Assembly (NCBI RefSeq): GCF_023238205.1
Contig: NZ_CP096659.1
Coordinates: 2,993,626 to 3,057,625, forward strand
Length of the DNA stretch: 64,000 nucleotides
Source of the DNA: Halorussus limi
GTDB taxonomy: Archaea > Halobacteriota > Halobacteria > Halobacteriales > Haladaptataceae
Direction: 5' to 3'
Within the stretch, counting starts at the first letter, position 1. Every line of letters begins with the position of its first letter. A model generated the notes under the pieces. That model did no database searches and was not told the DNA's origin. It was given only the letters and a program-made list of their open reading frames with translations. Made by a program: the position numbers and the translations under genes. Below, piece after piece: positions 19,899 through 64,000 of the stretch.

Positions 19899-20004
19899 TC
19901 AGAAAGCCTATCACTATTGGCGATACCGGGCGACGAGACCGTTCAGTATACATCATCGGCACCAATCACTGTTATTACACAGCGGAAGCAACGACACTAC
20001 GGAC

Positions 20005-41629: not shown

Positions 41630-41833
41630 AATCAACGTTATAGGCGCTAACTTGCCAATACTGTCGTAAATGAAGTCTCGATTATTATTTTAAAGCCTGC
41701 ATCTGATTAACACCGTCCTTCGTCTTTAGAAGAACGCTGTAAGACGTGAGAATGAGGAGACGACCGATTACTACACCTGCTACGGTGAGAATGGAGTGTT
41801 GGGTGAGGAATATGGAGTGAATAGAGAGGGGGG

Positions 41834-42307: not shown

Positions 42308-42456
42308 GAAAGAAGGACCTATGTCTGACAAGATAAGTTTTCTGGAGCAGGAACTCTGGGTGAAGGTATCCGATCCCGGAGGGGTTGAATCCACGAATCA
42401 TCAAATCAGCAGATTTATAATTGGCGGGAAAGCCGTATCCCGGTAGATTACAGAGC

Positions 42457-46523: not shown

Positions 46524-49256
46524 TTACGAGTAGAAGACGACGGGGCGGCGGTCGCCACCATGTTCATCCTCAGGAAGGTGCTCTGAGAGATCCTCGCGGG
46601 TGTCGTCGCCGAGGAGTTGGTTGAGGACGTCGACGGCAGAGGCCCGGAGGAGGGGTTTGTTGTCGTTGCCGCAGTTTTCGTCGAAAGTGCAGGCAGGGCA
46701 GCCGTTGGGTTGACCGCAGTGGCAGTCGCGGAGCTGATCGCGGGCGCGTTCGGCGAGCGCTTCGAAGTTTTCGTAGATGGCGCGAGCGAAGCCGAGGCCT
46801 CCGTCGACGCCGTCGTAGATGAACCAGCCGGAGGCGGTGCGGCCGGTGAGCTCCTGAGTGCGTTGTTCGAGTGCGTGGGTGGCGGCTTCGAAGGAGTCGC
46901 CGATGGAGTCGGTGATGTCGTCGTAGTCGGGGTGGGCGTAGTGGGTGTCCATGACGAGCGTGGCGAGGCCGCCGAGGTCGTTTTTGTCGACGCGGAGTTC
47001 GAGCGGGGCGGTTTGGATAGTGGCGTGTTCTGCGGCGTGGAGCCCAGCGATGTATCCGAGGTGGGCGATACCGGTGTTTTCGGGGTCGACGCCGGTTTCG
47101 ATGCCGTAGTCCTGGTACTTGCGGGTGAGGGCGGTTTCGACGTCTTCCGGGACTTCCACCCAGCAAAGCTGCGTATCCATCAGGATCGGCGGGGTTTCTG
47201 TCGGGATTGCTTGTTGTTTCGGGTCGCTATTGCCAATGTAGAGCTGGTCGTAGGAGTGGTGGTGGACGAGCACGGTTCCGCGGCCGAAGTGGAGAGTGAA
47301 TCCGTTGACCTCGCGGGATTCTTCGGACTCGGCGTCAAGAACGTTGACTTTGTTTCGGGTACGGGTGTAGTACTCGCAATCGACTGGTTTGAGTTCGATG
47401 ATGGGTTGCGGGCGGTCTTCGTCGACGTTGACGACTTCGAACTGCTGACCGTTCTGGAGGCGGACTGCGCCTTCGTGGTAGTCGCGGTAGGCGCGGTTCT
47501 GTTCGATTGGTTCTAAGTCGAGATCGTCGGGGAGGCCCCACTTGTCACGGTCGACATCGGCTGCGAGTTGAAGGCGGTAGTCCGTGTCGGTGGTGCCGTA
47601 CAGGTTGACGCGTGTCTGTGGGCGGCTCGGGCCGGAGTAGTGAACGGCGGCGTCAAGGTAGCCGTCGACGAAGCCAGCTTCGCGCCACATCTTGACGGCA
47701 GCCCGAAGTCGGTCTTCATCCGCGAACGTACCGATATCTGATTCATCGAGTGCGATTTCGTCGGCGGCGGCGAGGACGTGAGTCGCAAAGACAGAGTTGT
47801 TCGATGTGTCGACGACGGCGTCTTCGACGTCGTTTTCGAGGAGGTACTCGGGATGGTTGAGGATGTACTGATCGAGTGTGCGGTGATCGCCGACGAGGAC
47901 AGCGAGGCTGCGGCTTGCTTCGCGGCCGGCGCGGCCGATGCGTTGCCAGAAGGACTGTCGCTGGCCGGGATAGCCCATGAGAACGGTCGCGTCGAGATTG
48001 CCGATATCGATCCCGAGTTCGAGTGCGGATGTCGTTGCGAGGCCGGTGAGGACGCCGGTTTTGAACTGGTGTTCGCGGGAGTGACGGGTGTGGCGACCGA
48101 GGCCAGCGTTGTACGCTTCTCTCCCGACGGTGGTCGGATGGTCGTATTCGCGGGGGTTGTTCCGGCGGTGTTCGTCTGCCCGCTGGATGCTAAGCTCGGT
48201 GAGTTTGCGGCTGTCGCAGAACAATAACGTGCGGATGCCGCGCGAGGTCAGATGGTTGAAGACTTTCGGCGCTTCGACGCTGGCCGGGACGCGCTCGGCG
48301 ATGAACTCTTCGCCTTCCTCTTCTGGATCATTCGCATCGTCGATGTCGATATCGAAGGTTTCCTCTTCGGGCGTAGGGTCCTGTGTTTTGTCCCGCGGCG
48401 GCGGGTTCCAGAGGATGACGTCGCGGGGGCCGTGCGGCGAGCCGTCGTCATCGATAACGGTCACGGAGGCGTTAATAAGTTCCTCGGAGTGATCCCGGGG
48501 GTTCCCGATTGTGGCGGAGGTGAGGACGTATTGCGGGTCACCGCCCCAGTAATCGGCGACGCGTTGCATCCGGCGGAGGATCCACGCGACGTGCATGCCT
48601 TCGATGCCAGTGTACGTGTGCGACTCGTCGATGGCGACGAGGTCAAGGGCGCTGTAGAATCGGCTCCACTTGTCGTGGTGTTCGAGGTAGACGTTGAGCC
48701 CGGCGAAGTTCGTGAGGATGACGTCGGCTTGCTCGCGGATGGCGCGTCGGTTGCCTGTTGTATCGCCGTCGTAGATTTCGACGCGGATGTCTAACCCGAG
48801 TTGGTCGTACAGTTCGTCGAGTGCTTCTTGCTGGTCTTTGGTGAGCGCCTTCATCGGATACACGCACAACGCGGTTGAAGCGTCGTTGTGTTCGGCGGCT
48901 CTCGTTCCGTCGGGGTTGAGCACGCCAGCATCGAGGAGATTCCGTGCGATTTGGAGGCCGTAAATGTGAGTTTTCCCGCTGGACGTTGATGTCGTGACGG
49001 CGACGTTGTCACCTGTTTCGAGTGCATTGAGCGCGTCGGCTTGGTGGCTGAACAGGTCGTGCGGGTATGGCTCGGCGAGCTCTGGACGGAGGACTTCCGC
49101 TGTCGGGACCGTGTCCGCTGGTTCGGCTGGTAAGCCGATGGTTTCGAGGTATTCCGAGTCGGGGGTGAGAGAGGTTCTCGGGAACGTGTCTATAATGGTG
49201 TCCGCATCAACGTCGGCTCGTGCGTTCGCGTCGGTCGAGGTGGTGTTGTCACTCAT
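46524..49256 (-). CDS. MrfA/YprA-like DUF1998 helicase
   Basis: A 910-residue superfamily 2 helicase. Motif I TSSGKTH has its Gly-Lys at 94-95, and motif II DESH is at 210-213. The second RecA domain has GIDIGNLDATVLMGYPGQ and QRIGRAGR. The C-terminal DUF1998 region carries cysteines C845, C847, C853, C856 and C862, the zinc cluster of MrfA. Bacillus MrfA (YprA) is a 3'-5' helicase that acts with the exonuclease MrfB in mitomycin damage repair. Here the MrfB-like gene is 2 bp upstream and the Argonaute gene precedes it, so it is the last gene of a six-gene operon. Confidence 0.9.
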   Translation of the reverse strand: MSDNTTSTDANARADVDADTIIDTFPRTSLTPDSEYLETIGLPAEPADTVPTAEVLRPELAEPYPHDLFSHQADALNALETGDNVAVTTSTSSGKTHIYGLQIARNLLDAGVLNPDGTRAAEHNDASTALCVYPMKALTKDQQEALDELYDQLGLDIRVEIYDGDTTGNRRAIREQADVILTNFAGLNVYLEHHDKWSRFYSALDLVAIDESHTYTGIEGMHVAWILRRMQRVADYWGGDPQYVLTSATIGNPRDHSEELINASVTVIDDDGSPHGPRDVILWNPPPRDKTQDPTPEEETFDIDIDDANDPEEEGEEFIAERVPASVEAPKVFNHLTSRGIRTLLFCDSRKLTELSIQRADEHRRNNPREYDHPTTVGREAYNAGLGRHTRHSREHQFKTGVLTGLATTSALELGIDIGNLDATVLMGYPGQRQSFWQRIGRAGREASRSLAVLVGDHRTLDQYILNHPEYLLENDVEDAVVDTSNNSVFATHVLAAADEIALDESDIGTFADEDRLRAAVKMWREAGFVDGYLDAAVHYSGPSRPQTRVNLYGTTDTDYRLQLAADVDRDKWGLPDDLDLEPIEQNRAYRDYHEGAVRLQNGQQFEVVNVDEDRPQPIIELKPVDCEYYTRTRNKVNVLDAESEESREVNGFTLHFGRGTVLVHHHSYDQLYIGNSDPKQQAIPTETPPILMDTQLCWVEVPEDVETALTRKYQDYGIETGVDPENTGIAHLGYIAGLHAAEHATIQTAPLELRVDKNDLGGLATLVMDTHYAHPDYDDITDSIGDSFEAATHALEQRTQELTGRTASGWFIYDGVDGGLGFARAIYENFEALAERARDQLRDCHCGQPNGCPACTFDENCGNDNKPLLRASAVDVLNQLLGDDTREDLSEHLPEDEHGGDRRPVVFYS

Positions 49257-49258
49257 GG

Positions 49259-50806
49259 TTAGAAGTCGGTGAGGCCAGCTTGTTGTCCGGTTGCGCCGCC
49301 AGTGCCGCTGTCGGTCATATCACGTCGCGTGGCATTCGTGATTGCTTGGTAGACGTGCCAGAGTGCCCGGCAGTCGTCTTCGCAGTACGCCTTATGGCGT
49401 TCCCAGTCCGGTTCAGCCGCTGGAGAGTCCGGGTTGCGCATAAATTCTTGATACGCAGCAGCGGTTTGCGCGCCAGTTAACCCGGTTCCGGCAGGATCGT
49501 AGCCGAGCGCGCGAGCAACGTGGTCGAGTTTGTTCGTTCGACCGGGGAGGAGGGCATTCCCGTCGCGGACGGCCCATTTGTATAGGTCATATGTCCAAAT
49601 GTCGTTCCAGGCCTCGACGTATTCGGGGAGGTGCTGTTCAAGGAACTGGGTGATCTGTGGATAGTCGAAGTTGTACCCGTTCCATGTGAGCACTGTTCTG
49701 TCTTGGTGGTTGGCGAGGAACCACGTGATGAACGCTTCAAGTACTGGCTTCGGGTCGTTTGGGTGTTGCTTCTCGATGAACGCTTGATGTGTGTCAGTTG
49801 CTGGGTCGTAGACGCCGAACTGCCAGATGATGGTAGGGGAGAGCCCGTCGGTTTCGATGTCGAGGCAGAGCGGTGGGCGGTCGTCACGTGTCTTGACTGG
49901 TGTCTTGTTTGTGAGAACGATGGGTTCGCCTGAGTCGATGACGTCTGCGTGAGCGTGTATCTTCTCGGCAGTCGTCTGTCCAATGCCGGAAAGGTCCGTG
50001 AGCGTACTGATGGCGAGGTTCTGGACATCGCCCGTTGTTTGACATCCCTGTCTGCGGAGCCGCTTCGCAGTAGACTCGGCGACACCGTTCAGCGCTTTGA
50101 GCCCGAACTGATCGGCGTCGACAGCTTCTGCTGCAACCGTCCCTTGAGGCGTGCAGGTGTACTGTGCGAACTTCAGTCCGTGTTCCTCAGACGCTCCGAG
50201 TCCAGAAATCGGGACCTGCACTGATGAGTGATTATACGAGAGTGACCACTTGTGGTAGTACTCTGCTGGCTGGCCGCCTGCGAGGACCGTGACTGGTTCG
50301 GACAGGGTAGCAGTGATCGCCGCCAACTGCTCAGCCTGAGGGAGGGTCGTGGAGAGGGTCGTCGTATCCCACTCAACGGAGAGTTGGGGGACGAAGAGGT
50401 ACGTCGCCGCCTCGGAGCCTGTCTGCCGCTCACCCGATGACAGCTGGGTCTGAAGTCGAGGGAGGACGTCCCCGCTTTGGACGGCGAGAATGTCTATCGT
50501 CTCGGGGGGTGGCGCTGTGTCAGGTGCTCCGTGAACGCCCGCGTCAGAGGAGTATCGATAGTGGTGGACGCGGTCAGCACCGTGGCCGCGTTGCGGGTGG
50601 AGAACTGGGAGGTCCGGTGCGGCGTCACGGGCGGTCGCATACGCAGTCGGGGTTCGGGCCCCAGGGACAGTAATGAGCGCAGCCGTGAAGTACTGGACAG
50701 CGTCACGGACCGCAGGCTGTGACACGCGGTCGAGGGTAGACGCGGGAAGTGCCAGTAACTCCAGGGGTGTTTCGCCGTCCGTGGTCGAATCGGTGTCTCC
50801 GGTCAT
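49259..50806 (-). CDS. MrfB/YprB-like DEDD exonuclease with HhH
   Basis: A 515-residue protein. The N-terminal 230 residues are uncharacterised. A helix-hairpin-helix region lies at about 238-290 (LNGVAESTAKRL, then LSGIGQTTAEKIHAH). The C-terminal 200 residues are a DEDD exonuclease with D316 and E318 in LDIETDG, TWNGYNFDYP and the final YCEDDCRALW. HhH plus RNase_H_2 is the pattern of YprB/MrfB, the exonuclease partner of MrfA. It ends 2 bp from the helicase gene and starts 12 bp after the Argonaute gene. A 3'-5' exonuclease resecting DNA opened by the helicase is the likely role. Confidence 0.85.
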   Translation of the reverse strand: MTGDTDSTTDGETPLELLALPASTLDRVSQPAVRDAVQYFTAALITVPGARTPTAYATARDAAPDLPVLHPQRGHGADRVHHYRYSSDAGVHGAPDTAPPPETIDILAVQSGDVLPRLQTQLSSGERQTGSEAATYLFVPQLSVEWDTTTLSTTLPQAEQLAAITATLSEPVTVLAGGQPAEYYHKWSLSYNHSSVQVPISGLGASEEHGLKFAQYTCTPQGTVAAEAVDADQFGLKALNGVAESTAKRLRRQGCQTTGDVQNLAISTLTDLSGIGQTTAEKIHAHADVIDSGEPIVLTNKTPVKTRDDRPPLCLDIETDGLSPTIIWQFGVYDPATDTHQAFIEKQHPNDPKPVLEAFITWFLANHQDRTVLTWNGYNFDYPQITQFLEQHLPEYVEAWNDIWTYDLYKWAVRDGNALLPGRTNKLDHVARALGYDPAGTGLTGAQTAAAYQEFMRNPDSPAAEPDWERHKAYCEDDCRALWHVYQAITNATRRDMTDSGTGGATGQQAGLTDF

Positions 50807-50818
50807 TGTTGGGGTTAG

Positions 50819-53428
50819 TTAGATGAAGCCGATTTTATCTCGGAGTTTGTTGGTCGGTGGGAGGTGCTGGCGAGCGGCCGCAGTGCTTGCCAGGTCCGCG
50901 TACATTGTCGTGATTGGAAGGCGAGCGGTGGCATTGGATGCGCCGACGTGCGCTTGCGACAGGAGGTACGTTTGCGCAGTTAACGTCTCGATGGGGGTAT
51001 CGCCGTGGACGCGTTCGACAGTGATGGGTTGTGGGAGTCCGGTGCTTTCTCTGCTGGCGAGGGTTTCGGGTTCCCCAAAGGTGGCGACGATGGCTTTAGG
51101 AAGGTCCTCGTAGATGGCTGCGGTCGCTTTCTGCGGTGTGTCGAAGTGAGCGCCGCTGTATTTCAGTACGCGGGCTGGAGCTTGCTTCCGGATCTCGACG
51201 ACATCGTACGCGACGTCGAGTTCCGTGAGGAACTTCTCGACTTCGCCGAGGTCTTCGTTTGCGAATCCATCTCGGTGGATCGTGATGTGGTTCGGGTACC
51301 GGTCGTATCGGGTCCGGAAGCCCATCACGGCCTGTTTGACGATCTCTTTGAGATCTTTCGGCGGGATCTTCTCTCCAGACTGCGGTCGAGAGGAGGTGTA
51401 TCCGAGGACGGCCCCGTCAGCGTGAATCGCGGTGGTTGCGGCGGCGAGATGGACGTGGTTACCGTTCGCTGATTCGTCGTACTGATGGGTGACGTCGATT
51501 CCAAGGTGGAGTTCTGACTCGCCAGGCAACGCACGCTCAATAGTGAACGGAATGCCTCCTGCAGCCGCGACCAATCCGAGGGCGATGTTGATGATCGTGA
51601 ATCGCTCGTCGAGTGTTTCCTCGTGGGCGAACTGGCTGTTGAGGTCCTTCGTAGCGAGAACCTTTTTCACCTCGTCGTAGACTCGCTCCGGATCCGCCGT
51701 GTCGAAGTACCCGGTGTTCTTCGGCGGGAGCGTGCAGAACACGGCGTCGTAATCGTGGTCGTCCGGGATTTCCGCCGCAATTTCCATGCCCAGCTGGTCA
51801 GGTGACATCGTCGCGTCGAAGGTGACCTCTTCGACGCTGTCTGGCGGAGCTCCGATCTGTTCTAGTTTGCTTTCGAGGGTGGACCATCCCCGCTGGATTC
51901 GCTTATCCCGTTTCTCCATCCGGACGTGGCACACGCGGAAGGAATCCGGTGCTTCGTAAACCCCGAGGCTCGTGACGTCACTCGGATGCGTTCCGGTTTT
52001 CCCATCACTGAACTGCAAGACGTCTGCCTCTGGGTCGAAGAGCCCACGGATTGAGACGTTCTCATCGCCGACCAACGGATCTGACTCGAACTCGACGGTG
52101 TGCCCGTCGAACTGAAGTGGGTCAAGTTGTTTGACGAAGTCCTCAGCCTTCGAGATGCATTGCTCGGCTGACAAACGTGTATTGAGCCGTTGTTTCTCCG
52201 CAAACTCCGGCGCGAATCGAGCGAGATTCTCAGGGTGACCTTGGAGTGCCAGGAGTTCAGGTGGGAACGCCATCTCTGTTCCATCGCCCCGCTGACGGAC
52301 CGTCCAGATAACCTTACGATCTGCGTCCTCGATTTTCTGTACTTTCGCTGGATCGACCCAGGGTTCCTCGCGGTGATACTGGACGAGGCTTTTGTTCCCC
52401 TCGATATGGAGCTTGTCAGTGACGGTTTCTGACCCCACGCCGATAACGTACAATCCCATATCTCGGTACGTTGGTGTCACCCTGAGCCCAGGATGAATCT
52501 CGTCTTCATCGAGTTGATCGAGCGTCTTGTCCGAGAGAATCCGATGGCGGTAATCGACGTGCAGATAGGCTGCACGCGTGGGGAGGACCTCAACGGTGAG
52601 GTTGTATCGCTCGTGAAGGCGGAACCCCTCTTTCTCGATAACGGGTTCGATTTCTAGGATTTTATCGATTCCGTGGATGTCGTACTGGTCGCGTTTCGAG
52701 TCCTTCAGAACTTCACCGAGCATTTCACCCAGAATCTCCCGGTCATCTTCGTCCGCGAAAGCGACCGGTCGCTTACCAACCTCGTTAATCTCGAAGCGGG
52801 GAAGGTCCACTCGTTCATGCGCGAGTTTCACGAGGGAAACCAGTTTGAACGCACTCCCAACCACGACCGGCGTGACGTCAAGTTGTTGCCGGACTTTGCG
52901 GCGCGCGCGGTACGTCGCTCGCAGCGCGTTCTCGCCAGAAGGTCGGAACCCTCGCTTCGGAACGAGTTCGTACTCGTAGACGTCGTAGTCTGGAAGATTC
53001 TCTGTGGCACGGAACGTCGTAAGACCGTGATCGCCACTAGTAGCAGATGTGTCTGGAGTTTCAGCCAGACCGTCTTCGAGAGCTTCCTCTGTACTCGGTG
53101 GGCCCGACATTTCGAGAAGCTTAGCATCACTCTGAACAGTAAGATTCTGGTATCTCTCCCCGTCGTTTCCTTCGTCGATTTCGTACTCGACAGCTGTGAT
53201 GAGGTAGGTAGCCCCCCTATCGTAATCTGCTTCGTAGATCTCCTCTGGTGCAGAGTTTTTCCAGATCGTGACGGTCCGGTCATCACCGCCGCCGTCTGTG
53301 AATTTCAGGTTGCGTCGAGGGTACTGACCCTCGTTCTCGAAGACCGCGTCTAAGGTGAATCGAACGGCGTAGGTGTCTCCAACCGGTACGTCGTTGAGTG
53401 AGTTCTTGTCAAGATTAACTGGTTTCAT
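50819..53428 (-). CDS. long prokaryotic Argonaute with N-terminal OB-like domain
   Basis: An 869-residue Argonaute. The PIWI catalytic tetrad is complete: D645 in GIDVTH, E686 in SGEKIP, D720 in HRDG and D844 in YADL. In Natronobacterium gregoryi Argonaute the equivalents are D663, E704, D738 and D863, a near-constant offset. The C-terminus ends in hydrophobic GFI, as usual. The N-terminal 110 residues read like a single-strand-binding OB fold (TVTIWKNSAPEEIYEADYD), as in the repA-type domain of NgAgo. Start ATG 53428 overlaps the DUF2797 gene's TGA by 4 nt. It should use short nucleic-acid guides to bind or cut DNA. Activity and guide type cannot be read from sequence. Confidence 0.93.
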   Translation of the reverse strand: MKPVNLDKNSLNDVPVGDTYAVRFTLDAVFENEGQYPRRNLKFTDGGGDDRTVTIWKNSAPEEIYEADYDRGATYLITAVEYEIDEGNDGERYQNLTVQSDAKLLEMSGPPSTEEALEDGLAETPDTSATSGDHGLTTFRATENLPDYDVYEYELVPKRGFRPSGENALRATYRARRKVRQQLDVTPVVVGSAFKLVSLVKLAHERVDLPRFEINEVGKRPVAFADEDDREILGEMLGEVLKDSKRDQYDIHGIDKILEIEPVIEKEGFRLHERYNLTVEVLPTRAAYLHVDYRHRILSDKTLDQLDEDEIHPGLRVTPTYRDMGLYVIGVGSETVTDKLHIEGNKSLVQYHREEPWVDPAKVQKIEDADRKVIWTVRQRGDGTEMAFPPELLALQGHPENLARFAPEFAEKQRLNTRLSAEQCISKAEDFVKQLDPLQFDGHTVEFESDPLVGDENVSIRGLFDPEADVLQFSDGKTGTHPSDVTSLGVYEAPDSFRVCHVRMEKRDKRIQRGWSTLESKLEQIGAPPDSVEEVTFDATMSPDQLGMEIAAEIPDDHDYDAVFCTLPPKNTGYFDTADPERVYDEVKKVLATKDLNSQFAHEETLDERFTIINIALGLVAAAGGIPFTIERALPGESELHLGIDVTHQYDESANGNHVHLAAATTAIHADGAVLGYTSSRPQSGEKIPPKDLKEIVKQAVMGFRTRYDRYPNHITIHRDGFANEDLGEVEKFLTELDVAYDVVEIRKQAPARVLKYSGAHFDTPQKATAAIYEDLPKAIVATFGEPETLASRESTGLPQPITVERVHGDTPIETLTAQTYLLSQAHVGASNATARLPITTMYADLASTAAARQHLPPTNKLRDKIGFI

Positions 53429-54291
53429 TGTGCGTCCTCCATTGCCGGGATGCACTCAGCAGGTGCTTCGACCGTGAGCTGTTCTCCTTTTAAATGATCG
53501 AAGTTCACTACAGCGTCCTTCGTCGCCAAAATCTGTCCCCGGACCCCAAGTACCTCTGACTGGAGTTCGTCACCAACAGTGACTTCGGGCAGGTTCAGGA
53601 CAGTCGCGTCATCGCCAGAGAAGTGAACCGGGACCGTGATAATCCGATCATCGAAACCGTCCTCGTCATCCGGAAGGACTGAGAACGGTTCTAGAGACCC
53701 AGTTAGTACCTCACGACAGGAATTTGCAGCCGTGACGAGTTCCTGTTTCGGGTCATCCAGCGGCTCGTACCATTCTTTCGTCGATTCCGTCGACACCACA
53801 TCATCCAGAGCTTCTTCGATGATCCCGGCGACACGACGATTCGGTGTTCTCGCAACGACCATACCGTGCGTCGCTCCTTGCTCTGCCCAGCGACTGACAT
53901 ACCGATCTGCCTGCGTGATGCCAGCCTTCACACAGTCTTTGGCAACTAGGTAGACGACGAAGTTGTGCGCACACGACCGTCGTTTGAACGACGGGAACGG
54001 GCAGTCCTGATACGTACAAGACGTTCCAGGAGTGAAGATGCACTGCTGGTGTGGCGGCTTCGACTGGCACTCCTGGCACGGCGATGTGTCTGCTTGATCT
54101 CCGCAGTGCTGGCACCGGAATCCAGGCTGGATATCGACGCAGATCTCTTCACCGACGAGACCTGCGAGGTCTATCGGCCCATCCGTATCAGCGAGGTATA
54201 GTCGTGGTTTTCCCCGTGACCAGGAGACCATTGTCGGGTGAGCACTCACTGTAGCCCGAGAGCGGAGCGTAGTAGTCTGTCGAACTGTCAT
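53425..54291 (-). CDS. DUF2797 zinc protein of the Argonaute operon
   Basis: A 288-residue protein. Eight cysteines at 60, 63, 72, 75, 84, 92, 97 and 107 form probable zinc clusters. They precede a GIY-YIG-like segment, FVVYLVAKDCVKAGITQADR (111-130), then SRWAEQGATHGMVVARTP and an invariant-looking glutamate in AGIIEEAL. This is the DUF2797 pattern. The C-terminal third is a beta-rich domain. The family has no firm function; a nuclease-like or nucleic-acid-binding role is inferred. It overlaps both neighbours by 4 nt, including the Argonaute start, so tight co-expression is expected. Confidence 0.8.
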   Translation of the reverse strand: MTVRQTTTLRSRATVSAHPTMVSWSRGKPRLYLADTDGPIDLAGLVGEEICVDIQPGFRCQHCGDQADTSPCQECQSKPPHQQCIFTPGTSCTYQDCPFPSFKRRSCAHNFVVYLVAKDCVKAGITQADRYVSRWAEQGATHGMVVARTPNRRVAGIIEEALDDVVSTESTKEWYEPLDDPKQELVTAANSCREVLTGSLEPFSVLPDDEDGFDDRIITVPVHFSGDDATVLNLPEVTVGDELQSEVLGVRGQILATKDAVVNFDHLKGEQLTVEAPAECIPAMEDAQ

Positions 54292-55007
54292 TTGTACCCT
54301 CCGAGAGTTCCCTGAAAATCGGTCGGGCTTCGATACGGATCGATAATTTCGTCGGTCAAGTGTCGCATCGCCTCAGCCTGGATCGCCATCTCGATCTTGC
54401 GGCCGTAGAGCGTGATACGACCGGTATCGTCGAACCCAACTTCGACCTGGATATTTCGGTCCGGGAGATCGACACGGACCTGTTCGAATGGATCCCCGAA
54501 GTATTGCTCCCACCAGTCCGTGTCTCTCAGGTCGCCCCTATCTTGAGCCGAAACGTGGTCTGGTCTTTCGCGCCTGCTCGGACTGACGTCGACACGTTGG
54601 ACGCGGCTGGATTCCTCGATGACCGTTCGCAGGTCATCTTCGTCGAACTCTACCGTCTCAAATCTCACGTCCTCATCGAGAACTCCCGTGAGTGTCGTGA
54701 GAATCTCCTGTTCAACCTCCTTTGTCGCCTTCTCGATGGCGACATATCCGTTCTGGAGGAAGAGGATCGGATACCGTTTCGCGCGTTTCGTTTGTTCGGT
54801 GCCTTCGAGCGTGGTCCGGTCGTAGTACGTCTCACGACCATACTCAGCCCAGCATAGCCCATCTACTCCCTCGGTGAACGTGTGCGGAAGCATTCCGCTG
54901 TGAAGGTCGACGTCCGAGTCGAACGCCGAGGTAGCCTCGATTCCGGCTTCGATCTCTTCCGTGTCGATGCTCTCGTCTCGCAGTGGCACAATTTTGTAAC
55001 TAGCCAT
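54288..55007 (-). CDS. uncharacterised Argonaute-operon protein (239 aa)
   Basis: A 239-residue acidic protein with no motif I know. It has alternating strands and helices (ASYKIVPLRDESIDTEEIEA, YPILFLQNGYVAIEKATKEV, then RITLYGRKIEMAIQAEAMRH). The TVIEESSRVQRVDV segment and a C-terminal helical part suggest a compact alpha/beta fold. It overlaps the AAA ATPase gene by 8 nt and the DUF2797 gene by 4 nt. Its fixed position suggests it forms a complex with the ATPase or adapts it to Argonaute. Function unknown. Confidence 0.75.
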   Translation of the reverse strand: MASYKIVPLRDESIDTEEIEAGIEATSAFDSDVDLHSGMLPHTFTEGVDGLCWAEYGRETYYDRTTLEGTEQTKRAKRYPILFLQNGYVAIEKATKEVEQEILTTLTGVLDEDVRFETVEFDEDDLRTVIEESSRVQRVDVSPSRRERPDHVSAQDRGDLRDTDWWEQYFGDPFEQVRVDLPDRNIQVEVGFDDTGRITLYGRKIEMAIQAEAMRHLTDEIIDPYRSPTDFQGTLGGYK

Positions 55008-56130: not shown

Positions 56131-56201
56131 CGCCTCAAACTATCCAAGATATCCAAAACTATTAAAACCTATTGCTTTGATTGACTATCTGTGGTAGCCA
56201 C
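56131..56201. promoter_or_regulatory. 71-bp divergent promoter region
   Basis: The gap between the AAA ATPase and Mre11 genes is only 71 bp. An AT-rich core, CTATTAAAACC (56158-56168), is placed about 30-40 bp from both start codons, so it could serve as TATA box for leaderless transcripts in both directions. Repeated TATCCAA (56143-56149 and 56151-56157) lies beside it. TGTGG-TAG-CCACA (56190-56202) overlaps the Mre11 start. Confidence 0.5.
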
Positions 56202-57710
56202 ATGTTGACGCTCACGCACATCGCGGACACGCACCTCGGCCACCGGCAGTACGGGTTGAAACAACGAGAGGACGACATGGTGTCGACGACGCGTGCTGCA
56301 TTCCGTGAAATGGTCGAGGAGCACGAGACGGACGCGATTCTGCTACCCGGGGATCTGTTCCACTCGCGGGATCTCCGCCCGAAGGTCCTCGACCAAGCAG
56401 AACAGGAACTAAGCAGATTACCGGACGACGTGCCGGTGTTAGTATCCCGAGGGAACCACGACGAGAACTTGACGCCACGCGAGGTGACGTGGCTAAATTA
56501 TCTGCATCGGCGTGGCCACATCGTGTTTCTGAAGGCAGACCTGGAGGCGGATCCGGAAACCGCTCGGTTCGACCCGTACGACCCGAGTGACCCGGGGGAT
56601 TACGCTGGATTCTACGACATCGAGGTCGAGGAGTGCGACGGGCCGGTTCGGGTGTTCGGACTCCAATGGCGAGGCGCAAGAACGAGGCAAGCGTTGCAAC
56701 AGGTGGCAAACGGGATTGAAGCAGCGAACGCCGAGCACGGTGAACCGGCAGCGACCGTGCTACTGGCGCATTTCGGAATGGAGGATGAGGTCCCGACGCT
56801 CGGCGGGACGGTAACGCACGGGGAACTCCGAGATGTGAAAGAGCACGTGGATTATTTGGCACTCGGACATATCCACAAGCGGTACGAGGCTGCTGACTGG
56901 ATCTATAACCCTGGCTCCCCGGAAGCGCACAACACGCGCGAAGGCCGCCACGACTGGGAGCACGGCTACTGTTCAATTGCGCTATCTTCCAACGGAAACG
57001 AGGCCGAAGACGCGGTTGAGTACGAAGTGGACCACCACTCGACCAAGCGACGGCCGTACTACCAGGTGGAGTTCGATGTAACGTCGTACGACTCGCCGAG
57101 TGAACTCAAAACCGGGTTCCAAGAGCATGTCCGAGGAGAGCAATCGAACATTGACGAGTATTGCCAGAAGGAGGCGTTCACAGCGAATGGTAATCCCCGC
57201 GCGCCGATCATCGATCTGCGGTTCACCGGGACATTACAGTTCAGTCGGGGAGACTTCCGGACGGATGAGCTCGCAGAGTGGCTGAAAGACGAGTGTGATG
57301 CTCTGTACGTGCAGGTGAACACAGGGATCCGGACGGCGGACGTGCAGCAACTGATCTCCGAAATCGACGAAGAGGAAGTGTTCCAGGATGGGCGGTTGAA
57401 CACGAACGCGTTGGAACACCGGGTGTTCGAGACGATAGCGAAGGAGTCCATCTACGATGACCACGCGGAAGACGTCGCCGACGTGCTGGGGAACGCACAC
57501 CAGATGGCGCAAGCGGAAGAGGCAGTCGAAGATATCCGCGATTCGGTGAGCTCCGCACGGCAGGAACTGTTCCCTGAATTGACTGGCAACATCGTGCTTG
57601 ACATCGATGAGGACCCCTTCTCGGACACGGATCCCGATGAGGAGACTGAGTCAGGAGATGAAGAACCCAGTCGAGAGGTCAGCGATGAAGCGGAGGTGGT
57701 GCAGCAATGA
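56202..57710 (+). CDS. mre11: Mre11-type DNA double-strand-break nuclease
   Basis: A 502-residue calcineurin-like phosphoesterase. Metal motifs are D9 and H11 in ADTHLGH, D51 in LPGDLFHS, GNHD at 84-87, and LAHFG and LGHIHKR further on. Mre11 is the Mn-dependent 3'-5' exonuclease and endonuclease of the Mre11-Rad50 complex. A C-terminal acidic tail (DIDEDPFSDTDPDEETESGD) is typical of halophiles. The ATG at 56202 was chosen over an upstream frame as it starts the first strand. Its TGA overlaps the Rad50 ATG by 4 nt. It is divergent from the Argonaute operon and may be an accessory copy. Confidence 0.93.
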   Translation: MLTLTHIADTHLGHRQYGLKQREDDMVSTTRAAFREMVEEHETDAILLPGDLFHSRDLRPKVLDQAEQELSRLPDDVPVLVSRGNHDENLTPREVTWLNYLHRRGHIVFLKADLEADPETARFDPYDPSDPGDYAGFYDIEVEECDGPVRVFGLQWRGARTRQALQQVANGIEAANAEHGEPAATVLLAHFGMEDEVPTLGGTVTHGELRDVKEHVDYLALGHIHKRYEAADWIYNPGSPEAHNTREGRHDWEHGYCSIALSSNGNEAEDAVEYEVDHHSTKRRPYYQVEFDVTSYDSPSELKTGFQEHVRGEQSNIDEYCQKEAFTANGNPRAPIIDLRFTGTLQFSRGDFRTDELAEWLKDECDALYVQVNTGIRTADVQQLISEIDEEEVFQDGRLNTNALEHRVFETIAKESIYDDHAEDVADVLGNAHQMAQAEEAVEDIRDSVSSARQELFPELTGNIVLDIDEDPFSDTDPDEETESGDEEPSREVSDEAEVVQQ

Positions 57711-60418
57711 AGATTACTGAGGTAGCGTTAGAGGATATCAAGTCGTACGAGGGGCGGACAGTCGTGTCGATTGAAGGCGGTGTGACCGCAATCCTCGGTG
57801 AGAACGGCGCGGGGAAATCGACGATTCAGGAAGCGATTGGGTTCGCATTATTTGACTCGCTGCCGTTCAACAATAAGGACTTCGTGCGCGAGGACGCGAG
57901 TTCTGGGACTGTTGAGGTCACATTTGAGCAGGAGACCGCAAAGGGACAGCAACGCTTCCGCGTGACGCGGTCAGCCGGGCGGTCAAACTACGGCGTCCAC
58001 AGGTACGATTCCGAGAACGAAGAGTGGATCAACCAAGACATCGATTCCAAATCCCAACTCATCAAATGGTTGTGCGCCCGGTTCGACGTCGAAGATAAAG
58101 AGGAGCTGCAGAGCCTGTGGAAGTCGTGTATCGGCGTTCCGCAGACACGATTCCTCTCTGACTTTGCGGACAATCCGAAGCCACGGAAGGAGAAGTTCGA
58201 TGCGCTGCTGAATCTGGATGCGTACGAAGAGTCCTGGAATCGGCTCAAGGACATTCCGGATGCGATTGAGCAGGAGGAACAGAAGCTCCGTGAGGAGATT
58301 GCAGGGCTCACGAGTACGGTACAGGACCTGCCGGACAAGCGGGCGAAAGCGGAATCGCTGGCCGACGAGGTCGCATCAATCGAAGCCGAGATTGAGCGGA
58401 AAACCGACGAGCTGACTGAGAAAAAAACAGAGCACGAAGAGTTAGAAGCCGTCCAGAATGAAATCGACAGCCTCGAACAGGAGGTGCGGTCACAGGAGCA
58501 GGAGATCGAGGCTACCAAGCGAGAGCTAGAAGCTGCAGAGAAGGAACTTCGCGCCGCTCAGAAGGCACAGGAGAAATGTGAGGAGAACCGTGAGGGGTAT
58601 CGCCGGCACGAGGAAGCGAGTAAGCGGCTGGACGAGCTGGAGGAACGAGAGAGCGAGCGGGACACGCTTGCTGAGCGGAAAGACGAGCAGAAACAGGAGG
58701 TCTCGTCGGTCGAATTCGAGGTGAACCAGCTTGAAGATGACTTAGAGACGCTGCAGTCGGCGCAGGAAACGTTGGAGGAGCGTGAGGACGAGAAACAGCG
58801 GTACGAAGAACTTGACGAGAAGATCAACTCGCTACAGCAGCGTGAGGGCGAGGTCGAGGAACTACAGGAACGAATCGACGATCTCACCGGAGATATTAGC
58901 GAGAAGCAAGAGAAGGTGGAGTCGCTCGAAGCGAAAGTTGAGGTCATCGAGGAAGAGTGGGAGGCGACGACGCGTCCGGGGGAACTCGACGAGAAGATTA
59001 ACGAGCGGAAGGCGCGCCGGAAGCAACTGAAGAACGAACGGGAACAGCTCGAAGAGCAGTTGGAGCGACTGCGAGATACGGATGTGGATGCGCCGTGTCC
59101 GACGTGTGACCGACCACTGAAGGAGGAACACCGGTCGGACGCAATCGACCAGCGCGAAGAACGGATCGAAGATATCGACACAGAACGTAAGGAGCTCAGC
59201 GAGGAACTCTCTGTTCTACGCGACCGTCGGGAGGAGGCCCGAAACGTCAAGCAACGTGCCGATAAGCTCCCGGTTCACCGTGAGAAGATCGAATCGTTGG
59301 AAGGAGAGGTCGAGAATCTCCAGGCAGAGAAGTCGGAGGCAGAGGAGACACTAGAGGACCTCGAAGAAGAACTGGCGGAACTGCCAGAACTCGAAGCAGA
59401 ACGGGATGAACTGCAGGAAGCGTATGACGAGTACGAGACTGCGGAGTTCCGAGTGCAGGAGCACGCGGACATCCCTGACGAATTAGAGGAGAAACGGGCA
59501 GAGCTTGATGCTACCAACTCGAAGTTGGAGGAGATCAACGACGAGTTGGCGGAATACGAAGGGCTGGACGAGAAACTGGCCGAGGTCAAGGAGACACTGG
59601 AGGAGACCGAGTCGGCGTATCAGACGTACATCAAGCACGAGCAACAGGCCTCCCAGGTAGAGGAACGGCAACAGGCCGTCAACGAGACGGAAGAGGAACT
59701 GGCCGAGCTCAAAGACGCCCTTGACGAGACGAAAGCCGAGCTCGAAGAGACGAAAGCAGCGTTCGACGAGGAGCGACTTCAGGCGCTTGAGTCGAACATC
59801 GAGGACCTCAAAGGTGAGATAGAGCGAGCGAAAGGCTCGCTCGAAGAAAAGAAGGAGAATCTCACCGAGACGCGCGAGGAAACCCAGCGCTTAGAGACGG
59901 CGTTGGAGGAACGGCAGGAGAAGCTCCAGCAGTTGAAGGAGCTGAAAGCCGATCACCAGTTCGCGGAGTGGGTCCGGGAGAATGTTCGGGAGGCAGGGCC
60001 GAAGATGCGGGAAATCATCACCGACCGAATCGGGGCGCGGGCGAACGAGTTGTTCCGGACGATCCGCGGTGCGTCCGCGGAAACGCTTGAGTGGACGAGT
60101 GATTACGAGATCGTCGTTCACGACGCGGACGTGAAGAAGTCGTTCTCGACGCTAAGCGGTGGTGAGAAGATGGCGGCTGCGCTCGCGGTTCGGCTCGCCA
60201 TCCTCGAACAGCTGGCGTCGGTCGGCGTCGCGTTCCTGGACGAGCCGACGGCGAATCTCGACCGGCAGAAGAAACGCAACCTGGTGTCACAACTGAAGCA
60301 GCTGGATAGCTTCGAGCAGCTCACTGTCATCAGTCACGACGAGACGTTCGACTCGATGACGGACTACACGATCTCCGTGACGAAAGACCGGCAGACGTCG
60401 GAGGTGACGGTCAATTAA
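57707..60418 (+). CDS. rad50: Rad50-type SMC ATPase
   Basis: A 903-residue SMC-family ATPase. Walker A GENGAGKS is at 31-38. Two long coiled-coil arms are joined by the zinc hook CPTC at 464-467, which dimerises two Rad50 molecules. The signature LSGGEK is at 816-821 and Walker B reads VAFLDEPTANLD. Rad50 tethers DNA ends and gates the Mre11 nuclease with ATP. Length fits archaeal Rad50. It overlaps the Mre11 gene by 4 nt and the NurA gene by one base (TAATG), so the three are co-translated. Confidence 0.95.
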   Translation: MKITEVALEDIKSYEGRTVVSIEGGVTAILGENGAGKSTIQEAIGFALFDSLPFNNKDFVREDASSGTVEVTFEQETAKGQQRFRVTRSAGRSNYGVHRYDSENEEWINQDIDSKSQLIKWLCARFDVEDKEELQSLWKSCIGVPQTRFLSDFADNPKPRKEKFDALLNLDAYEESWNRLKDIPDAIEQEEQKLREEIAGLTSTVQDLPDKRAKAESLADEVASIEAEIERKTDELTEKKTEHEELEAVQNEIDSLEQEVRSQEQEIEATKRELEAAEKELRAAQKAQEKCEENREGYRRHEEASKRLDELEERESERDTLAERKDEQKQEVSSVEFEVNQLEDDLETLQSAQETLEEREDEKQRYEELDEKINSLQQREGEVEELQERIDDLTGDISEKQEKVESLEAKVEVIEEEWEATTRPGELDEKINERKARRKQLKNEREQLEEQLERLRDTDVDAPCPTCDRPLKEEHRSDAIDQREERIEDIDTERKELSEELSVLRDRREEARNVKQRADKLPVHREKIESLEGEVENLQAEKSEAEETLEDLEEELAELPELEAERDELQEAYDEYETAEFRVQEHADIPDELEEKRAELDATNSKLEEINDELAEYEGLDEKLAEVKETLEETESAYQTYIKHEQQASQVEERQQAVNETEEELAELKDALDETKAELEETKAAFDEERLQALESNIEDLKGEIERAKGSLEEKKENLTETREETQRLETALEERQEKLQQLKELKADHQFAEWVRENVREAGPKMREIITDRIGARANELFRTIRGASAETLEWTSDYEIVVHDADVKKSFSTLSGGEKMAAALAVRLAILEQLASVGVAFLDEPTANLDRQKKRNLVSQLKQLDSFEQLTVISHDETFDSMTDYTISVTKDRQTSEVTVN

Positions 60419-61683
60419 TGCCGATTGATAAACGCGGGGTCGCCAGCGAGTTAGAGGCCAACGTCGAGACGATTGAGTCGTACCTGGAAGACGACTCCGG
60501 AATCGTCGAACGCTACTTGGACGCGTTTCAGCGCCTCCCAGACGAGTGGACGAGCGATGAGATTCGAATGGCGTTACAGGACACGTCGTATCCGGGCGCA
60601 TACCCCACGGACGCGTTCGACAACGCGACCAATGTCATCGTTCCGCACCCGGAGAGTGACGGATGGGAAAACCATGAGGAAGTCAACGAGTGGGCACGCG
60701 ACATCGTCCGGGACGTGCCCGTGATGGCTGTCGACGGGTCACAGCTCCCGCCGACCACGCAGTTCAACGTCCCGGTCGCATACGTGCAGTCGGCATGGGC
60801 GGTGAATCATCACCACGCGGAAGGCCGACTCGACCGGAGCGTCGAAGGACGACTACTGACGCCTGACGAGGTGACACAGGAATCGGAAGACGGCGATTAC
60901 CGGTTCGTCGATTCGCAGCTCGTCGGTCATCATCGCTACGAACACGAAGGGCAGCTCCTGATCGAGAAGTTGTCAGATCTGGCCGCTGCTCGTGACGCGG
61001 GAGATATCGAATACGCGCCAATCGTGTTCTACGACGGGCCGTTGATCGCGTCGTTTGCGAACCCGTTGAAGCCTGAAACCCGGGAGCGATATCTCTCGAC
61101 GTTGAGCCGGGTGATCGCGGCAAGCCAACACCATGAAATTCCGCTGGTCGGATACGTCGCGGGTTCGAGTGCGACGGAGTTGGTGAAAATGACGCGGCTC
61201 CTGTGGCGTGAGGAGTTCGAAGATGATCGCGTCATTCCGGACGCTCACGTACTGGCAGAGTTGATGAGTCCCTGGGGCGACACGACGGTTCCGTTTATCT
61301 CGAAGCGAGACGGAAGTGTCGACGCGTTACAGGCGACGTACGAGGGTGAGACCTACGAGTTCCGTGATGACATTCTGTTCTCGTATCTGAACGTGCCACC
61401 GGGGGCTGGACTAGACCGTATCGAATTCCCCGGGTGGCTGTGCCGTCGTGACGGTCCTGACGGGTACGAGTCGATGTACGAGTACACCGTCGAGATTGTC
61501 CGCGCAGAGGCCGGTATCGGGCGCGGCTACCCCGAGATCCTCCAGCAGGTGGACAGTGATGCTGTGCTGGACCACCAAGACCGCCAAGAGTTTCACCGGG
61601 TCGTGCAGCGCTGGGCCGAATCGAACGACGTGCCACTGGAATGGAACGCCAAGGCACTAAGCAAGGAACTCCGCCGCCGATGA
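60418..61683 (+). CDS. nurA: NurA-domain nuclease
   Basis: A 421-residue NurA nuclease. AVDGSQ has its metal Asp at 106, and FYDGPL has Asp at 206, the two signature motifs. NurA is a 5'-3' nuclease that acts with the HerA translocase in resecting DNA ends after Mre11-Rad50. Length is at the upper end of the family. A TAATG junction links it to Rad50. The next gene starts 73 bp later. In many archaea, NurA and HerA flank Mre11-Rad50, and the same set is seen here. Confidence 0.92.
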   Translation: MPIDKRGVASELEANVETIESYLEDDSGIVERYLDAFQRLPDEWTSDEIRMALQDTSYPGAYPTDAFDNATNVIVPHPESDGWENHEEVNEWARDIVRDVPVMAVDGSQLPPTTQFNVPVAYVQSAWAVNHHHAEGRLDRSVEGRLLTPDEVTQESEDGDYRFVDSQLVGHHRYEHEGQLLIEKLSDLAAARDAGDIEYAPIVFYDGPLIASFANPLKPETRERYLSTLSRVIAASQHHEIPLVGYVAGSSATELVKMTRLLWREEFEDDRVIPDAHVLAELMSPWGDTTVPFISKRDGSVDALQATYEGETYEFRDDILFSYLNVPPGAGLDRIEFPGWLCRRDGPDGYESMYEYTVEIVRAEAGIGRGYPEILQQVDSDAVLDHQDRQEFHRVVQRWAESNDVPLEWNAKALSKELRRR

Positions 61684-61756
61684 CAGACCCACATATATCA
61701 GAGATGATCAGAGCACCGCTCGTCCGACAACCCCGAAGCACCCTAGAGGTGAACCT

Positions 61757-62422
61757 ATGACAGAGTCAGTAACAGAACTCGATACCCCGGACCTCGACTC
61801 GTGTGTCCGGATCGGGAGCATCGTTTCTTCAAACAGCCACCTCGACTACGTCGTCGAGATCTTCAAAGAGCGAGATTGTGACCGGCCGCCAAAGCTTCAC
61901 GAGCGCGAATTCGGGCAACCCGTCTTCATCAAGAAGGTCATTGACGGGACGGAGCATGCGGTCATGGGTGTGATTTACGACACGAAGCTCGTCGATCCTG
62001 ACCAAGGTCGAACCGGTCCGCGATTAGCCCAAGACGACCAAGCGCAGTTCACACCTGGATACATCGAGGAGCGAACCACGCTCGCTGGCGTGGCGCTCCT
62101 CGGGACAGCTGTCGTGACCGACGACCGGTCGATTACCGATCCGACGCATCGGATGCCGCGGTGGACGTTAGAGGTCGATGATACGGTCTACCACTGTCCG
62201 GATGAGGTGACCGTCTCCTTCCACACCGTCGACGGGCAGATCCAGCTGGCCTACCTCGACCGACTCATCGACATTGCAGGTGACCTCGGTGCTGAGGTCA
62301 TCGTCGCACTGATCGACCGGCTCCGACGGATGCTCCCCGAGGACGATTCGAACCAGCGGGTACTCGATGTGGTGGAGCAAAACATCGAGTGGCAGGCGCA
62401 CGAGCGCCGGGGGGTGGTCTAA
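61757..62422 (+). CDS. uncharacterised protein between NurA and HerA
   Basis: A 221-residue protein. RIGSIVSSNSHLDYVVEIFK near residue 18, KVIDGTEHAVMGVIYDTKLV and AGVALLGTAVVTDD have the strand pattern of the HAS-barrel found at the N-terminus of HerA-type ATPases. A helical C-terminus follows (YLDRLIDIAGDLGAEVIVAL, then QRVLDVVEQNIE). It overlaps the HerA gene by TAATG. I infer a split or auxiliary barrel subunit that docks HerA to NurA. No motif proves it. Confidence 0.7.
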   Translation: MTESVTELDTPDLDSCVRIGSIVSSNSHLDYVVEIFKERDCDRPPKLHEREFGQPVFIKKVIDGTEHAVMGVIYDTKLVDPDQGRTGPRLAQDDQAQFTPGYIEERTTLAGVALLGTAVVTDDRSITDPTHRMPRWTLEVDDTVYHCPDEVTVSFHTVDGQIQLAYLDRLIDIAGDLGAEVIVALIDRLRRMLPEDDSNQRVLDVVEQNIEWQAHERRGVV

Positions 62423-64000
62423 TGTCCGGGAAGTCCTCCGTTGTCGGTACTGTTGCCGGACCAGGTGATGACCCGAACGAGTTCGTCTTCGTCACCCCTG
62501 CGGACAAGTCGATAAAGACCGGGGAGTTCATCACCTACACTGTCTCCGTCGATGGAGGGAACCGGTCTGTGCTCGCCAGGGTAACGAACCGTGAGTTGAT
62601 TCGCGGGCTACCCGAGGGCTTTCTCGCAGATCCCGAGGTTGGTCCAGATACGGTCGCGGCAACCCTCGGCGTCCCGACCGACGACACCGAATTGTACCGG
62701 CTGACGGCGACGGTCATCGGGTACTATGACACTGAGATGACCACGTTCGCTAATCCGCGACAGCTCCCGGCCCCAGGGACACCACTATCGATTGCTCCCG
62801 ACCAACAGCTCGAAACAGTTCTCCCGAACCTCGGCTGCGAGACGGACAGTACTGACGTCACGGAGCTAGAAGGGACTGCGCACCTGGGATGGTTACTGAA
62901 TCGGTCACCGAAGGCGACGAATATCCACATTCCAATTGAGGAGTTCGCTTCGACGCACCTGGCAATCCTCGCATCCACTGGGAGCGGGAAATCGTACACA
63001 GCCTCTGTGTTGATCGAGGAAATGATGGGGGCTGATTCCCGTGCCTCACTACTCGTGTTCGACCCGCACGGGGAATACGATACCCTCGCGGAGATGCAGG
63101 GGAACGAGGCATTCCGAGGCGAGGACGGGTACGAGCCGGAGGTCGTATACTACGACCCTGAACGACTTCGGGTTCGTATCTCGGAACTGGAGATAGGCGA
63201 CGTCATGGCCGTCTTAGACAATCCGAGCAACCGGATGCAAGAGCGTTTGTCGACGGCATGGCGTGCGATGCAGCGACAGGAGAGTCGGACGTGGGGTATC
63301 GATGAGCTTATCGGTGAAATGGAAGCGAGATACGGGGAGGATGACGCGAGTGTCGGTGCGTTAGAGTGGCGACTTCGCCAGTCGATTGAGCGGAACGATC
63401 TGTTCCACCCCGAAGACAACGTTCCGCTGAACGAGATCGTGGATCCAGGTCAGTGTACAGTGTTGCAGATGGATACGTTGGATCGGTGGAATCAGCAACT
63501 CATCACGACCGTTCTCTTGCGACGGATGTATCGAGAGCGGCTCGATGCCGTCCGAGACCGAGACTCTCAGATTGAACATCCGCTCTTCGCGCTGTTCGAA
63601 GAGGGGCACCGGTTCGCACCAGCGTCTGGTGATGCGCCGTCACTTGGAATCATGCGAACGATCACGTCCGAGGGCCGCAAGTTCGGCTTCGGGCTGGGAA
63701 TCATCAGTCAACGTCCGTCGAAGATCGACCAAGACGTGCTGTCACAGTGCGGGACGCAGATCTCGATGCAAATCAAGAACCCGAATGACCAGGACGCGAT
63801 CAAGAACTCTGTTGAGGCTGCCGGTGAAGACGTTCTCCGTGAGTTACCTGGTCTGACGCCTGGGCAAGCGGTCGTCTCTGGCGATGCGATGAATACGCCG
63901 GCGCTGATACAAGTTCGGCAGCGCCGGACGTCCCACGGGGCAGGGAGCCGTCCCGTTATTGAGGAATGGCGTGACGCCTACGATCAGCGGCAGCGTGAAC
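62422..64000 (+). CDS. herA: HerA-type DNA translocase (partial, runs off window)
   Basis: The first 526 residues of a HerA/FtsK-like ATPase; the 3' end lies beyond the window. An N-terminal barrel domain (residues 1-110) is followed by Walker A in ASTGSGKSYTAS, with Lys at 190. Walker B reads LFALFEEGHRFAP, and a sensor-like IISQRPSKIDQ and QIKNPNDQDAI follow. HerA pumps DNA through a hexameric ring and with NurA performs processive end resection. It is translationally coupled to the preceding unknown gene. Confidence 0.93.
   Translation, partial: MSGKSSVVGTVAGPGDDPNEFVFVTPADKSIKTGEFITYTVSVDGGNRSVLARVTNRELIRGLPEGFLADPEVGPDTVAATLGVPTDDTELYRLTATVIGYYDTEMTTFANPRQLPAPGTPLSIAPDQQLETVLPNLGCETDSTDVTELEGTAHLGWLLNRSPKATNIHIPIEEFASTHLAILASTGSGKSYTASVLIEEMMGADSRASLLVFDPHGEYDTLAEMQGNEAFRGEDGYEPEVVYYDPERLRVRISELEIGDVMAVLDNPSNRMQERLSTAWRAMQRQESRTWGIDELIGEMEARYGEDDASVGALEWRLRQSIERNDLFHPEDNVPLNEIVDPGQCTVLQMDTLDRWNQQLITTVLLRRMYRERLDAVRDRDSQIEHPLFALFEEGHRFAPASGDAPSLGIMRTITSEGRKFGFGLGIISQRPSKIDQDVLSQCGTQISMQIKNPNDQDAIKNSVEAAGEDVLRELPGLTPGQAVVSGDAMNTPALIQVRQRRTSHGAGSRPVIEEWRDAYDQRQRE

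Follow-up and report, generated by a model that had tools for sequence, protein, structure and literature searches.

The Argonaute locus of Halorussus limi

We analysed a window of 64,000 nt from Halorussus limi (GCF_023238205.1, NZ_CP096659.1, positions 2,993,626-3,057,625 of the forward strand), of which positions 46,524-64,000 hold a locus with a prokaryotic Argonaute (pAgo). A check of the open reading frames (ORFs) placed a six-gene minus-strand operon containing the pAgo back to back with a five-gene plus-strand operon coding for DNA resection proteins, hereafter the resection block, and the key motifs of both were intact (Table 1). In the Argonaute operon the MrfA and MrfB genes are separated by 2 bp and the MrfB and pAgo genes by 12 bp, while the pAgo gene overlaps the DUF2797 gene by 4 nt, the DUF2797 gene overlaps the gene of the 239-aa protein by 4 nt, and the latter overlaps the gene of the AAA-wHTH protein by 8 nt. 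The two operons are divided by 71 bp, from the AAA-wHTH gene (56130) to the ATG of Mre11 (56202), or by 80 bp if the AAA-wHTH protein starts at 56121. An earlier note on this DNA had described these ORFs, gaps, overlaps and the 71-bp spacing, and the ORF check, Pfam and motif analyses agreed with it throughout. A pattern search for the Walker A motif of HerA gave no match, yet ASTGSGKS can be read in the HerA translation, and a pattern search for the MZB cysteines of MrfA gave none either.

Table 1. Genes and features of the Argonaute-resection locus (positions in the window).
Feature	Position	Strand	Evidence and remarks
DEDD-type exonuclease candidate, 245 aa	45609..46346	-	177 bp beyond MrfA; exonuclease motifs read by eye
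MrfA-like (YprA family) helicase	46524..49256	-	Pfam DEAD, Helicase_C, MZB; motifs SSGKT, DESH, QRIGRAGR
MrfB-like exonuclease	49259..50806	-	Pfam RNase_H_2 and HHH_5; motifs LDIET, NGYNFD, YCEDD
Long pAgo	50819..53428	-	Pfam Piwi; PADLOC pAgo, 1153 bits; D645, E686, D720, D845
DUF2797 protein	53425..54291	-	Pfam; invariant cysteine pairs in alignment
239-aa protein	54288..55007	-	No Pfam match at E 0.01
AAA ATPase-winged-helix (AAA-wHTH) protein, likely regulator	55000..56130	-	Pfam MarR_2, weak AAA_22; Walker motifs
A+T-rich core of divergent intergenic region, likely shared promoter	56153..56174		Conserved in four cassette lineages
Mre11 (ORF open from TTG 56181)	56202..57710	+	Pfam Metallophos; motifs I-V
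Rad50	57707..60418	+	Pfam SMC_N, AAA_15, weak zinc-hook match; Walker A, CPTC hook, LSGG, Walker B
NurA	60418..61683	+	Pfam NurA; motifs DGSQ, YDGP
p221 (221 aa), marker of resection block	61757..62422	+	No Pfam match at E 0.01
HerA (ORF open from GTG 62389; runs past window end)	62422..64000	+	Pfam DUF87 (HerA central domain); PADLOC HerA models; Walker B

Recurrence of the cassette in other genera

A contig scan recovered the window Argonaute, with an identity of 91-94%, from Halobellus inordinatus, Halopiger djelfimassiliensis, Natrinema hispanicum and a short metagenome contig. The eleven genes occurred in identical order in all six cassettes with enough flank (the window, Halobellus inordinatus, Halopiger djelfimassiliensis, Natrinema hispanicum, G010 and G275), HerA being cut by the end of the stretch in some, so that the neighbourhood comparison which the earlier note had proposed found the neighbours of the pAgo to recur with it. 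Four different genus codes are represented (the window genome, G275, and G215 and G219, taken to be the Halobellus and Halopiger contigs), and G010 belongs to the window's genus and is nearly identical here. This recurrence of the whole set in other genera rules out a chance neighbourhood and supports the view that the eleven genes travel together. Among plasmid records, 13 carried a related Argonaute, all at less than 60% identity, and hence no close plasmid copy was found.

Argonaute and its operon companions

The window pAgo has 869 residues, of which the PADLOC pAgo profile match spans 114-869 and is thus near full-length. Its catalytic tetrad is of the DEDD type, which is present in 46 of the 50 aligned Argonaute rows, the remainder being truncated, broken or false (L105_1 is a false Argonaute row). 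The closest solved structures to its PIWI domain were Clostridium perfringens Argonaute (CpAgo), followed by entry 6qzk, which we take to be CbAgo, and KmAgo. Judged by these residues, the window pAgo is a predicted catalytically competent long-A Argonaute.

A DUF2797 gene adjoins 14 of the 15 Argonautes of the window Argonaute's clade (clade A), and DUF2797 is probably an Argonaute-specific helper. A possible resemblance to GIY-YIG nucleases was not confirmed, with no GIY-YIG Pfam match obtained in 12 members; T5orf172 genes, sought as a GIY-YIG comparison set, were found in none of 18 genomes, and no DUF2797 relatives were confirmed in viral contigs. Structure prediction from four close sequences yielded a poor model (pLDDT 30), and PDB profile searches with DUF2797 and with the NurA-like c18 returned nothing useful. 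Among the loci examined, the 239-aa protein was seen solely in window-type cassettes, and the AAA-wHTH protein probably controls the shared divergent promoter. MrfA and MrfB form an MrfAB pair by their Pfam domains, an MZB helicase adjoining an RNase H-like exonuclease. For the exonuclease candidate beyond MrfA, Pfam returned nothing at E 0.001. Halobellus has a gene 80% identical to it at a distance of three genes from MrfA; more distant relatives, which show 26-33% identity and have an extended N-terminus, directly adjoin MrfA in Halopiger and G129, and the gene also occurs at two loci without an adjoining MrfA. Because relatives lie near MrfA elsewhere, the candidate may be the seventh gene of the Argonaute operon and the twelfth of the cassette.

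The resection block as an accessory module

Matches to p221 were obtained in 39 of 392 Halobacteria genomes, and 36 strong ones were retained after three weak matches had been dropped. The order Mre11-Rad50-NurA-p221-HerA was complete in 31 of the 34 block regions fetched; L095 is without Mre11 and Rad50, and contig ends truncate L115 and L116. By its motifs, the operon would encode the four enzymes of the archaeal Mre11-Rad50-NurA-HerA type together. The window genome has another Rad50, 28% identical to that of the block, and another NurA outside the block. The possibility allowed for in the earlier note, that the block is merely the ordinary chromosomal copy, is ruled out by this second Rad50, the second NurA and the patchy spread (36/392): the block is an accessory second copy, and the genomic evidence, patchy and beside other copies, does not fit a core repair role in the host. 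A NurA-family gene outside the block lies at G000:C1:479545-480477. Another passed the cut-off in the control genome of Haloferax volcanii, though HerA and NurA are described as absent from H. volcanii (PMC7776575; papers given by PMC number and marked "in part" were available as excerpts).

The p221 protein is conserved across the block. Its 29 relatives gave no convincing Pfam match, and structure prediction from four close sequences reached a pLDDT of 38. Profile comparison lent no support to p221 as a free HerA-type barrel (probability 0.2%).

Repeated joining of the two operons

On a Rad50 tree of 32 rows, each labelled as Argonaute-linked or not, the Argonaute label requires five changes, all forced by supported branches, in a reconstruction that does not distinguish gain from loss. 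The linked groups are the window with G215 and G275, Halopiger, N. hispanicum, G177 and G078, and the label is only moderately clustered (37 of 500 shuffles were as low). One and the same Argonaute operon (91-92% identical) is common to the first three groups, and the Rad50 proteins of Halopiger and N. hispanicum are 70-71% identical to that of the window. The A+T-rich intergenic core is nearly invariant in the cassettes of these three groups, and in Argonaute-free copies of the block, among them the two sisters of the N. hispanicum copy, the sequence before Mre11 is a different one. The simplest account would be that the Argonaute operon and its divergent promoter were placed before resident blocks more than once. 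A pairing rebuilt several times suggests, in turn, that the two machines work together, most probably in defence against foreign DNA. In G326 (L085), which is sister to the window group and has no Argonaute operon, 39 bp located ~36 bp upstream of Mre11 match the AAA-wHTH start at 77% (E 0.08), a weak hint that this genome may keep a relic of it, i.e. that the Argonaute operon was lost there.

End-processing genes at haloarchaeal Argonaute loci

Argonaute matches were present in 51 of 392 genomes, and 44 loci remained after six weak matches (E above 1e-40) and G040 (a 4.6-kb contig) had been dropped. Genes in the fetched stretches were called with a custom codon scorer and labelled with custom profiles at 150 bits; confirmation by Pfam covers the AddAB-type genes of L048 and the nuclease partner of L140 only. 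Among the 44 loci, seven had the resection block, seven a second, distantly related HerA-NurA-like-Rad50-Mre11 block, 17 AddAB-like helicase-nuclease genes (16 without L039, a generic UvrD) and 11 MrfAB. One or more of the three end-processing sets lay near 29 of the 44 Argonautes, and near 33 if MrfAB is included. At L046-L050, L132-L134 and L137-L139 an APAP-type Argonaute is followed on one strand by PLD, AddB-like, PD-(D/E)XK and UvrD/PD-(D/E)XK genes. In G299 an AddAB-linked Argonaute has a second-block NurA-like gene at a distance of ~13 kb, beyond the counted stretch (C34:249354-250409, 263461-265662).

As Argonaute-free controls, we used 27 loci of the resection block, 13 of the second block and seven of close MrfB relatives. 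The 27 do not include L115 and L116, and six of them have less than 8 kb upstream of Mre11; the 13 are part of ~43 strong places, seven of them at Argonaute loci (45 were used in the chance estimate); and the seven are all places of at least 60% identity outside Argonaute loci. AddAB-like genes were found in 0/47, MrfAB in 2/40 and PLD genes in 7/47 of the controls. The association with Argonaute gave p 6e-7 for AddAB-like genes and p 0.011 for MrfAB (Fisher). Since the block stretches cover mainly the upstream side (~12 kb) and the Argonaute stretches are centred, a second test was restricted to 20 centred controls, in which AddAB-like genes were again absent (0/20, p 5e-4); many of the AddAB loci belong to one Argonaute clade and are not independent. 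With copies collapsed, the resection block lies beside an Argonaute in 3 of 40 cases (p 3e-6 for chance).

On a quick Argonaute tree of 42 rows, which carried long-branch warnings, omitted G177 (in-frame stop) and G169 (split) and had N. hispanicum added, the type of partner changes at least 10 times when "none" is included among the types, and L045 and L051, which are sisters, differ in partner. The fixed gene set that the earlier note had treated as one system was therefore not recovered: partners vary among Argonautes, and some Argonautes have none of those looked for.

A proposed modular Argonaute-resection system and its alternatives

Of the readings considered we favour, at about even odds, that the two divergent operons form one system against foreign DNA, in which Argonaute would be coupled to its own DNA-end processor. 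A wider proposal, which we put forward tentatively, is that haloarchaeal Argonautes would be the targeting half of a modular Argonaute-resection immunity with an exchangeable engine of at least three kinds (Mre11-Rad50-NurA-p221-HerA, the second HerA-NurA-Rad50-Mre11 block and AddAB-like), which would make guides from foreign ends and destroy cut DNA, giving a self-amplifying, DNA-only loop in one cassette. In the joint system of the two operons, Mre11-Rad50 and HerA-NurA, with p221, would engage, unwind and trim free double-stranded ends, such as those of linear viral genomes, broken forks and Argonaute cuts. The single-stranded products would become DNA guides, as with bacterial Argonautes and RecBCD, and guided Argonaute would nick matching multicopy DNA. 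MrfA and MrfB, perhaps with the extra exonuclease, would then unwind and remove the nicked strand, and the new ends would re-enter the first step to close an amplifying loop. The engine may supply guides, degrade DNA that has been cut, or do both; this order of action, and defence rather than repair, are what we infer from the gene content. What stands of the joint defence and repair system suggested in the earlier note is the co-travel of its genes (6/6), the accessory nature of the block, the repeated joining with the same promoter region and the end processors at 29/44 loci; the tie of the block to Argonaute and the fixed gene set do not stand.

Several results weigh against a common system. 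At eleven of the 44 Argonaute loci all of the partners sought are missing, and two of these loci are on contigs below 8 kb. The p-value for MrfAB rises to 0.08 when window-type copies are counted once and to 0.17 with the centred controls, and the Fisher results under each control set make the association of AddAB-like genes with Argonaute firm, but not that of MrfAB. AddB-like genes are present in 58 of 195 genomes, eight of the 15 closest relatives being in genomes without Argonaute, and MrfB-like genes in 216 of 392 genomes; no end-processing machine of these sets is exclusive to Argonaute. In G177 the Argonaute gene (C1:1409198-1411585), flanked by MrfAB and the resection block, is interrupted by one in-frame TAA and may be in decay; in G169 the Argonaute is split. 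Furthermore, 30-fold clumping of defence genes would raise the p-value of the block-Argonaute association to 0.05 with copies collapsed, and strong clumping could explain part of the pattern. Finally, only seven of the 36 block copies adjoin an Argonaute and 29 do not (among them that of G128, where an Argonaute is ~21 kb away), so the block is an independent module and the fixed tie implied by the earlier note was not borne out.

The last two points favour the main rival, that two independent defence modules share an island and a promoter region without a common mechanism, the block degrading linear foreign DNA alone and the Argonaute operon working alone. The neighbours of examined Argonaute-free copies include GmrSD, an Eco57I-type methylase with an SNF2 helicase and McrB-like AAA genes, in line with this rival, as is the proposal that HerA-NurA of Thermococcus degrades viral double-stranded DNA (PMC12977600, in part), an activity that fits guide making and shredding alike. 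We nevertheless regard it as rather unlikely, given that the halves were joined repeatedly with the same divergent region, that the end-processing sets are seldom near one another without Argonaute, and that partners of differing kind share a common task. Less likely still is a joint system in which the block acts downstream only, shredding Argonaute-cut DNA while guides come from Argonaute itself or host nucleases: unguided DNA chopping by pAgos has been discussed as a guide source (review PMC6279821, in part) and in APAP plasmid DNA is restricted by the partner nuclease and not the pAgo (PMC11442185, in part), whereas RecBCD/AddAB-type enzymes are linked to guide supply in bacteria, a point that bears on the present locus indirectly. 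A repair or replication-completion system, in which Argonaute resolves or marks broken chromosomal DNA, recalls TtAgo, which associates with AddAB and aids decatenation (as told in PMC10269773, in part), and MrfAB, which repairs mitomycin damage in Bacillus (PMC11194089, in part), and is improbable in view of the patchy distribution, the horizontal spread and the restriction-type neighbours in the window and around.

Comparison with known systems

The cassette shares with bacterial pAgos fed by RecBCD a CbAgo-like PIWI domain (similar to 6qzk, presumably CbAgo) and an end-processing helicase-nuclease. In the bacterial cases (CbAgo, SeAgo; PMC10269773, PMC9040764) RecBCD is the host's own repair enzyme, whereas the present Argonaute has beside it the genes of a separate end processor of archaeal type. 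Argonautes expressed in E. coli load small DNAs from the processing of breaks by RecBCD (PMC10269773, in part), and pAgo guides are usually RecBCD or AddAB products according to a review (PMC12948488, in part). By analogy, the cassette looks like an archaeal answer to RecBCD-fed Argonautes with its own engine.

APAP also combines an active-type haloarchaeal Argonaute (long-A) with a nuclease partner, the PLD protein AgaP, and a helicase gene is near some of its operons (PMC11442185, in part). Its partners differ from those found here, namely DUF2797, MrfAB and the Mre11-Rad50-NurA-p221-HerA block, and the text of the APAP paper makes no mention of Mre11, HerA, NurA or DUF2797. No PLD gene was found in cassettes with this block and a clade-A Argonaute; in L034 such a gene is located 8.7 kb past HerA. 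An AgaP-family PLD gene is present upstream of Mre11 in three of the 27 Argonaute-free block copies (L099, L103 and L104, the last as two pieces separated by a small predicted gene), and AgaP-type proteins may also function independently of Argonaute. A PLD gene was also seen at four of the 13 second-block control loci.

Nucleases and helicases, including a UvrD-PDDEXK group, have been surveyed in pAgo operons (PMC6299218, in part), and Mre11, Rad50 and NurA are unmentioned in the texts of PMC2743648, PMC6299218 and PMC6279821. The mre11-rad50-herA-nurA operon of thermophilic archaea (PMC7776575, PMC12977600) encodes the same four enzymes in one operon; in Halobacteria, by contrast, the block is accessory and patchy, has p221 between NurA and HerA and exists beside other Mre11, Rad50 and NurA genes. 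MrfAB/YprAB (PMC11194089, PMC12458937) likewise pairs an MZB helicase with an adjoining RNase H-like exonuclease, but here the pair lies inside an Argonaute operon, and Argonaute is unmentioned in the text of the YprA survey. The HerA-SIR2 and HerA-DUF4297 defence systems (PMC12948488, in part) resemble the block in joining a HerA motor to a nuclease partner, which here is NurA with Mre11-Rad50. The earlier note knew of no described system with this set of genes, and among the matches listed no title or start of an abstract described it, most subscription papers and figures being outside this scope.

Guide supply and the step from nick to destruction have so far been studied largely with host RecBCD. 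In the present cassette the engine is encoded beside Argonaute and is separate from the genome's other Rad50 and NurA; it could therefore be deleted without touching those, and the source of guides would then be open to test in tractable haloarchaea. HerA-NurA, described as "not apparent" in halophiles (PMC12977600, in part), is present there as an accessory module, and p221 and DUF2797 are two unstudied parts brought to attention. Within defence by Argonaute and partner nucleases, the cassette stands out by its dedicated, apparently interchangeable DNA-end engine.

Other defence-like genes were identified by Pfam in four further regions of the window (12760-14712, 19792-21048, 30257-31606 and 39371-44748), the kinds represented being an N6 methylase, an AspBHI/HNH restriction enzyme, a PD-(D/E)XK protein and an AAA_11/AAA_12 helicase.

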